Origin: Methylotenera sp.
Lineage (GTDB): Bacteria; Pseudomonadota; Gammaproteobacteria; Burkholderiales; Methylophilaceae
DNA length: 64,000 bases
Reading direction: 5' to 3'
NCBI RefSeq assembly: GCF_029945535.1
Contig: NZ_JAQSCU010000012.1
Location: 62,001-126,000, forward strand
Positions 4,088 to 6,771 of this stretch are shown here, one piece after another (position 1 is the stretch's first letter; each line of letters starts with the position of its first letter). The notes under the pieces are model-generated. The model did no database searches. It was given only the letters and a program-made list of their open reading frames with translations, and was not told the origin of the DNA. The position numbers were made by a program, and so were the translations under genes.

Positions 4088-4169
4088 CGGGTTTAGATAC
4101 AAAGAGTTTAAGTTTAAAACAAGCCACCTATAAATAATTTGCATTATTTACATATATATTTTATATTAT

Positions 4170-4203
4170 TGTAATAATTACATTTTATACTGTGAATTTA
4201 CAC
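4170..4203 (+). promoter_or_regulatory. Paired palindromes upstream of the XRE-ArgA gene
   Basis: The very AT-rich leader contains a 13-bp palindrome TGTAATAATTACA at 4170-4182. A second, imperfect one, GTGAATTTACAC, is at 4192-4203. Their centres are about two helical turns apart, with a TATACT -10-like hexamer at 4186-4191 between them. This is a plausible operator pair. Autoregulation by the helix-turn-helix of the downstream fusion protein is an inference. Confidence 0.4.
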
Positions 4204-4215
4204 TAAGTCATCACT

Positions 4216-5826
4216 ATGTCTATTGGTCACTCTATACGCTTTCGGCGCAAGTCGCTGAACATCACACTGCAATCTCTCGCCAATCAAGTAGGGGCAGACG
4301 CTGGTAATTTGTCGCGCATTGAGCGCGGCGAATTAGGCATTAACGAAAATACTTTACGCAAAGTCGCTGAGGCGCTCAATTGCACCCCAGCTTATTTGTA
4401 TGCGCAAAGTGATATGCCAAAAACAGCTTTATCTGTGCAAGAACATCACCAGCCATACCTCACAACTTTATCGCAAGTGCCTAGCAAAAACAGCACCTCA
4501 AACATTAAAGATTTCGTACAGTGGTTTAGGTCTGTTGCGCCGTACATACATGCGTTTGGTGGCAGAACTTTTGTGATTGCATTCGGCGGCGAAGTGGTTG
4601 ATGAAAAGCAATTTGTTGCACTTTCACATGACTTAAACTTACTCGCCAGCTTAGAGGTCAGGTTAGTGTTAGTACACGGCGCACGTCCACAAATTGAAAA
4701 GCGCCTACGTCGCGACAAACTGTCACCTAAGTTTGTGAATGGTCTGCGCGTCACAGACGATGCCGCAATGGAAGCCGTAAAAGAGGCCAATGGCGCGATT
4801 CGCGTTGAAATTGAAGCACTGCTGTCTATGGGTTTGGTGAATTCACCGATGGCAGGCTCTGACATTAGGGTGGCGAGTGGTAACTTTGTCACCGCAAAAC
4901 CGATGGGCGTACGCAATGGCATCGATTTACAACACACAGGTGAAGTACGTCGGGTTGATGCAATCGGCATCCAAAAACGTCTTGATGACAACGAACTAGT
5001 GCTGTTATCGCCACTGGGTTATTCCCCCACAGGTGAGGCATTCAATTTAAGCTTAGAAGACGTAGCGGTGAGCGCTGCCGTTGCGCTAGATGCTGACAAG
5101 CTGATTTTTTTGATGGATTCCGAAGGCGTACATAATCTACGCGGCGAATTATTGCGTGAAATGACCGCAGGTAAAGCTAAAAATCTACTACGTAACGTCG
5201 AAGGCAATGAACAAGCAATCAACATTTCTGAAGACATTAATTACTACTTACCTGCCGCGGTAAGGGCTTGTGAACACGGTGTGGCACGTACTCACCTGAT
5301 TTCGCGGCATATTGACGGCGCGATTATTCAAGAGTTGTTCACACTAGATGGTATCGGCACCATGGTGACCGAGCTTAGTTTAGAAAGCATGCGTCAAGCC
5401 AATATTGACGACGTAGGCGGCATATTAAAGCTGATTGAACCGCTAGAAGCCGAAGGCTTTTTAGTACGGCGCGGACGCGAACATATTGAAATGGAAATCG
5501 AACACTTTTATGTGATGGAACACGACAATCGCATTATTGGTTGTGCAGCTTTGTATCCATTTAGCGCTGAGCGCACTGCTGAATTCGCCTGCCTCGCGAT
5601 TGACCCAGCCTACAGAGGCGGCGGCCGTGGCGATAAATTATTTTATTACTGCGCTAGCCAAGCCAAGGAATTAGGTTTTAAAAGCTTATTCTGCCTAACT
5701 ACACGTACTGAACACTGGTTTTTAGAACGTGGGTTTAAGGAACAGAATGTAGAAAAACTACCTGCTGAGAAACAGAAACTTTACAACTTTCAGCGTAAAT
5801 CAAAGGTGTTTAGCAAAACTTTATAA
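4216..5826 (+). CDS. argA: XRE helix-turn-helix fused to N-acetylglutamate synthase (ArgA)
   Basis: First enzyme of arginine synthesis: it acetylates glutamate with acetyl-CoA. Residues about 95-370 are the amino-acid-kinase-like domain (RTFVIAFGGEVVD, VLVHGARPQIEKRL, GLRVTDDAAMEAVKEANG), which normally binds the arginine feedback inhibitor. Residues about 385-530 are the GNAT domain (ACLAIDPAYRGGGRGDKLF). Unusually, residues 1-65 are a complete XRE-type HTH: SIRFRRKSLNITLQSLA, then DAGNLSRIERGELGINENTLRKVAEAL. At 536 residues it is about 90 longer than ordinary ArgA. An internal ATG at 4414 could start a stand-alone enzyme, but the reading frame is open and HTH-like throughout. argB follows after 60 bp. 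The fusion suggests a trigger enzyme coupling arginine sensing to transcription (inference). Confidence 0.88.
   Translation: MSIGHSIRFRRKSLNITLQSLANQVGADAGNLSRIERGELGINENTLRKVAEALNCTPAYLYAQSDMPKTALSVQEHHQPYLTTLSQVPSKNSTSNIKDFVQWFRSVAPYIHAFGGRTFVIAFGGEVVDEKQFVALSHDLNLLASLEVRLVLVHGARPQIEKRLRRDKLSPKFVNGLRVTDDAAMEAVKEANGAIRVEIEALLSMGLVNSPMAGSDIRVASGNFVTAKPMGVRNGIDLQHTGEVRRVDAIGIQKRLDDNELVLLSPLGYSPTGEAFNLSLEDVAVSAAVALDADKLIFLMDSEGVHNLRGELLREMTAGKAKNLLRNVEGNEQAINISEDINYYLPAAVRACEHGVARTHLISRHIDGAIIQELFTLDGIGTMVTELSLESMRQANIDDVGGILKLIEPLEAEGFLVRRGREHIEMEIEHFYVMEHDNRIIGCAALYPFSAERTAEFACLAIDPAYRGGGRGDKLFYYCASQAKELGFKSLFCLTTRTEHWFLERGFKEQNVEKLPAEKQKLYNFQRKSKVFSKTL

Positions 5827-5871: not shown

Positions 5872-6771
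<900 letters not shown>

Follow-up and report, generated by a model that had tools for sequence, protein, structure and literature searches.

The window, a stretch of 64,000 nucleotides of Methylotenera sp. DNA, contains an open reading frame at positions 4216–5826 that has an ATG start, 536 codons followed by a stop, and zero internal stops. Coordinates are those of the window, and the features given lie on its plus strand. The product of 536 amino acids, XRE-ArgA, begins with a helix-turn-helix (HTH) domain of the XRE type, matched by the Pfam family HTH_3 over residues 7–61 (positions 4234–4398; E = 3.8e-08, 33.7 bits against a cut-off of 23). A variable linker (residues 66–99, positions 4411–4512) leads to an amino acid kinase-like domain (residues 118–363, positions 4567–5304), delimited by the Pfam family AA_kinase and by alignment to a solved N-acetylglutamate synthase (NAGS). 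A GNAT acetyltransferase domain (residues 391–536, positions 5386–5823), delimited by profiles and alignment, completes the protein, with a match to Acetyltransf_7 at residues 429–509. HTH_3-type, AA_kinase and GNAT are the only Pfam families found on it. The NCBIfam model NF003641 covers residues 95–536 with 695 bits against a cut-off of 344, identifying a full-length classical NAGS, and a second NAGS equivalog model, TIGR01890, covers residues 100–536. The initial annotation had described an XRE HTH in frame with a complete NAGS, and this is confirmed by the uninterrupted reading frame and by the Pfam and NCBIfam matches above cut-off. By sequence, the closest solved relative of the HTH is the P22 c2 repressor, and that of the enzyme part is the NAGS of Neisseria gonorrhoeae (2R8V). 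Among the best 120 of 8000 database relatives, the name, where one is given, is plain amino-acid N-acetyltransferase. Identity with BzdR/BoxR was rejected, as the model NF006015 matches the HTH part only, with 18.8 bits against a cut-off of 204. The argB gene follows 60 bp downstream of argA (positions 5887–6771).

XRE-ArgA has the same kinase-like and GNAT domains and the same arginine site as the Neisseria NAGS, which, unlike XRE-ArgA, has no HTH. In the available part of the report on that enzyme (PMC4490483), the arginine site comprises Lys201, Glu270 and the loop E-(L/I)-(F/M)-(T/S)-x-x-G-x-G-T; the N-terminal helices of neighbouring subunits of the hexamer interlace, and they shift upon arginine binding. 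In XRE-ArgA, Lys295 (positions 5098–5100) lies within the kinase-like domain, and the motif defined after the same source reads ELFTLDGIGT (E373–T382, positions 5332–5361). The equivalents of the arginine-site residues, identified by alignment to 2R8V as K295, E373, T376, G379, G381 and T382, are intact in 103 of 103 family loci. Gating of DNA binding by arginine is plausible on this basis. The variable linker may uncouple the XRE and enzyme domains.

These 103 loci of Methylophilaceae consist of 30 best matches, three loci from an order-wide search, 20 taken across genera, 10 of genus g2, and 40 more. The search for the same domain order that the initial annotation had proposed found it across the family, with the HTH in frame in all 103 aligned loci (63, then the 40 more), and in none of the 39 outgroup argA loci read. 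A whole-protein match was obtained in 181 of 187 family genomes, including 119 of 119 high-quality ones; as this tally takes in weak matches, possibly to ArgB only (e.g. G122, G006 and G169), the 103 loci read provide the firmer count. They include OM43-like and Methylopumilus genomes. In genus g2, which we take to be OM43-like, sequence identity with the window protein is down to about 37% and the genomes measure 1.2–1.4 Mb. Among the best 80 of 581 named loci, 49 are fused and 31 unfused. The fused ones come from Methylotenera, Methylophilus, Methylobacillus, Methylovorus, Novimethylophilus and Methylopumilus; argA without HTH occurs in Gallionella, Nitrosomonas, Nitrosospira, Thiobacillus and Sulfuricella. 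Five of the 31 unfused loci, chosen as early-starting or typical matches, were read and hold no HTH. Among the matches listed for 384 other genomes of the order, none starts before residue 44, and the two earliest-starting ones (G335 and G299) were read and found without HTH. At the level of the class, no match in 231 other genomes spans the HTH in an open frame, those starting before profile position 54 containing stop codons. No description of a DNA-binding ArgA was found in the open-licence literature searched.

The initial annotation had considered that a recognition helix not conserved in homologues would speak against its proposal. The corresponding stretch, D28–G38 (positions 4297–4329), is near-invariant: L32, S33, I35 and E36 are present in 103 of 103 loci, N31 and G38 in 102, R34 in 98 (Lys in the other five) and D28 in 94. 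Several of the invariant residues occupy general positions of the XRE consensus, which show mainly that the fold is kept; D28, N31 and R34 would speak more for a kept contact with DNA. The rate of evolution was estimated from 30 same-genus loci. The median dN is 0 over residues 27–38. The dN/dS (ratio of medians) is 0.11 for the HTH, 0.53 for the poorly conserved linker and 0.03 for each enzyme domain, where dS is near saturation and 154–214 of 435 pairs were kept per region after dropping pairs with no usable value. Within the genus, and with the same near-saturated dS, the linker thus evolves at four to five times the rate of the HTH.

Comparison of the upstream sequences revealed a pair of dyads, TTGYA-N5-TACAW, located 30 bp apart on the argA promoter. 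In the window, the putative operators O1, TTTGCATTATTTACATA (positions 4138–4154), and O2, ATTGTAATAATTACATT (positions 4168–4184), are both exact matches, and the pair is conserved. A pair score, designed after the family sequences had been seen, prescribes nothing but the outer TTG/CAA and a centre rich in A+T, at spacings of 29–31 bp; to provide the null, each upstream stretch of 150 bp was shuffled 200 times by dinucleotides. One family locus (L130, upstream sequence too short) and one outgroup locus (L178, N) were left out. The pair scored above the shuffles in 77 of 102 family loci at p ≤ 0.01 and in 91 at p ≤ 0.05. The corresponding numbers were 0 and 1 of 38 for the outgroup argA, which have a higher G+C content, were each compared with their own shuffles and have approximate gene starts. 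In a control stretch of the family loci, from −300 to −151, they were 1 and 3 of 100. Over spacings of 22–55 bp, the mean pair score peaks at 30 (14.53), the next value being 13.07 at 22, and the spacing between O1 and O2 in the family is 29–31 bp. The 11 of 102 family loci that fail at p ≤ 0.05 comprise two with a spacing of 42 bp (L062 and L065), four of the S30 clade (L124, L125, L133 and L134), four with weak pairs (L032, L033, L045 and L056) and one (L157) where the start was called too early and the site is visible at the proper place.

Some variants of the arrangement were observed. In five g2 loci (L061–L065) the spacing between O1 and O2 is 41–42 bp, about one extra helical turn. In genus g17, two loci (L050 and L145) contain an extra dyad, TTGCG..CGCAA, which is possibly a third operator and is located some 31 bp ahead of O1, close to where the preceding gene ends; similar extra dyads are present upstream of argA in L143, L144 and L146.

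A putative −35 element, TTGCAT (positions 4139–4144; TTTGCA at 4138 in the scan), overlaps the left half of O1, and a putative −10 element, TATATT (positions 4162–4167), lies between O1 and O2. Both were assigned by consensus match only, with 9 of 12 positions matching for the two together. The scan also gives three matches on the minus strand (4 found, 1.1 expected). Of the 72 loci whose pair is clear, 49 have their best sigma-70-like −35 beginning at O1, and 40 have their best −10 beginning 7 bases ahead of O2. With O1 over the −35 and O2 over the predicted start point, the arrangement would be that of a repressor. In 57 loci the downstream sequence was long enough to look for argB, which comes after argA in 44. 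A stretch of about 1.1 kb beyond argA showed no argB in the other 13 (L008, L009, L030, L036–L039, L041, L043–L045, L051 and L053), and most of these 13 keep the operator pair at argA.

The residues of the recognition helix were compared with the operator type, on the basis of the clear O2 present in 78 of 100 loci. Where G30 is combined with L, I, V or A at position 40, O2 is of the type TTGTA..TACA, with T in the left half in 50 of 51 loci and A in the right half in all 51. Of the 19 loci with Q40, 12 carry C at this left position and 9 carry G at the right one; of the eight with S30, six carry C on the left. Within genus g15, the O2 half-sites of the G30 group and of the S30 group differ likewise. 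Upon alignment to the recognition helix of P22 c2, residue 30 corresponds to a valine and residue 34 to a glutamine, both of which presumably contact bases. A quick tree was drawn from 92 of the 103 rows, a text filter having removed 11 (five g2, five g16 and one g1); on it, the class changes twice at residue 40 and once at residue 30. Residue 29 changes 11 times on this tree with no clean operator match. The co-change of helix and operator appears as a consistent pattern, on few branches and only partial.

The specificity of the sites was examined in the genome of the window. Five exact matches to WTTGYAWWWWWTACAWW were found, namely the argA pair, which provides the only intergenic ones, and three inside predicted ORFs. 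With up to one mismatch, there are 30 and 33 matches against 8 and 9 for the reversed control, a surplus due in part to palindromes being counted on both strands. As the window shows no surplus of the single motif with up to two mismatches (9 found against 13.2 expected), the case is made by the exact pair and by its conservation rather than by the single motif. According to a list read by eye, the paired pattern (up to one mismatch) adjoins argA in 40 of 52 same-genus genomes; the three other paired places are a contig end repeating the argA upstream region (G112), metW (G118) and a coding site (G132).

In the genome of the window, 44 site loci with up to one mismatch were read, and 18 of them lie between genes, namely the argA pair and 16 more, among which there may be weak further targets. 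One such site (G000:C12:9575-9591, L218) is located 264 bp from a gene that resembles leuA by eye. A second, below-cut-off carbamoyltransferase (L212) has an upstream site with two mismatches. A wider regulon was rejected, given the location of the three exact non-argA sites inside ORFs and the best sites within 400 bp upstream of argC (4 mismatches), argF (3) and argJ (4), none of which is comparable to the argA pair. The pair pattern recurs at a metW-like ORF in four genomes (G116, G118, G120 and, by sequence likeness, G132), and it overlaps the start of the ORF in the three loci read (L188, L190 and L191). This overlap probably reflects a coding coincidence, and metW was tentatively set aside as a second target. 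In the genome of the window, an operator-like dyad is found at the start of a metW-like ORF (G000:C6:155450-155466).

The C-terminal domain of ArgR (PF02863) was found in 0 of 121 family genomes, including that of the window, and in 0 of 200 genomes of the order; the same search was positive in 8 of 14 control genomes. PF01316 (ArgR) has no match in the genome of the window. Because the absence of ArgR extends more widely than the fusion, the latter would be a local solution rather than a direct swap for ArgR. The result for the 200 genomes makes the control of arginine genes an order-wide question.

An enzyme with a DNA-binding domain, one of the features of trigger enzymes, is what the sequence of XRE-ArgA encodes. 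That it is a trigger enzyme, as initially proposed, appears well supported at this level, because a cognate-looking operator pair is found on the promoters of fused argA and not at the unfused argA examined. The binding of ArgA to its own promoter, as predicted from sequence, appears well supported too. It is likely that ArgA is a trigger enzyme that represses its own gene, together with argB where it is next, and arginine would most likely act as the corepressor. The enzyme would make N-acetylglutamate and, through its own XRE domain, bind O1 and O2; occupation of O1 over the −35 and of O2 over the start would repress argA, plus argB where adjacent. The XRE domains would be attached to helices corresponding to the interlaced N-terminal helices of the Neisseria NAGS, so that, two by two, they could contact both O1 and O2 at once from a single face of the DNA. 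XRE-ArgA would thereby probably switch its own gene off when the enzyme is not needed. We infer all three elements, namely repression as the sign of the effect, binding by XRE-ArgA itself and gating by arginine. A fuller model is given an even chance: the ArgA hexamer, having bound arginine and with its XRE domains paired at the two-fold interfaces, would bridge the two phased operators and shut its own promoter, in a family with no detectable ArgR.

The long and variable linker, and all of the operator evidence, would fit equally well with plain autorepression, in which the XRE domain would respond to how much ArgA is present and hold the enzyme level constant, arginine acting on catalysis alone. 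This is a serious possibility, against which stands the position of the HTH, adjoining the N-terminal helix that moves with arginine in the Neisseria NAGS according to the part of the report available (PMC4490483); the two could evidently be coupled at this point. The sign of the effect could also differ, XRE-ArgA binding the pair and activating argA, or acting both ways depending on the ligand, but the location of O1 over the putative −35 and of O2 over the predicted start point makes this improbable. Attribution of the pair to another regulator, with the XRE domain being structural or protein-binding, is still harder to sustain, as the pair accompanies fused argA but was not found at the 38 unfused ones tested, and its half-sites differ with the helix residues. 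Lastly, the HTH could be a passive leftover, or translation could begin at the internal ATG at position 4414. This ATG exists, but the corresponding residue 67 is a Met in 5 of 103 loci, and any Met within residues 60–100 is found in 15 of 103. A start at this position alone, which the initial annotation had regarded as fatal to its proposal, is thus not supported, and with the HTH dN/dS of about 0.11 and the helix dN of 0 within the genus, such a reading is scarcely credible.

As the trigger enzyme that we favour, XRE-ArgA may be compared with PutA, the DNA-binding fold of which differs from XRE. The trigger enzymes of E. coli named in the available part of one source are BirA, NadR, PepA, PutA and PyrH (PMC8249747). 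According to the same text, PutA likewise combines an enzyme and a DNA-binding domain and represses its own gene and very few others, but it is an enzyme of proline catabolism and acts as a repressor in the absence of its substrate, whereas XRE-ArgA catalyzes a biosynthetic first step (PMC8249747). NadR and BirA of E. coli are likewise biosynthetic enzymes with a DNA-binding domain; they are other enzymes in other pathways and, as described there, multi-target regulators (PMC8249747). BzdR/BoxR has the same succession of an N-terminal XRE-type domain, a linker and an enzyme fold; in the portion of the report available, its shikimate-kinase-like part has lost activity, whereas XRE-ArgA keeps the residues of a complete synthase (PMC3602430). 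The expected logic is that of ArgR, with the end product limiting the transcription of arginine genes, but ArgR as presented in the part of the source available is a protein of its own, differing in fold and controlling a wide regulon (PMC5343134).

If the trigger-enzyme reading is true, such an enzyme would stand at the first step of an amino-acid synthesis, and the feedback on activity and that on transcription would be exerted through one allosteric site of one polypeptide. The fusion is kept even in streamlined genomes of 1.2–1.4 Mb. Since the Methylophilaceae, which consume methanol, are methylotrophs of biotechnological interest, XRE-ArgA bears on the engineering of methylotrophic strains. 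For the family itself, in which no ArgR is detectable, the fusion would offer a testable answer to how arginine synthesis is controlled.
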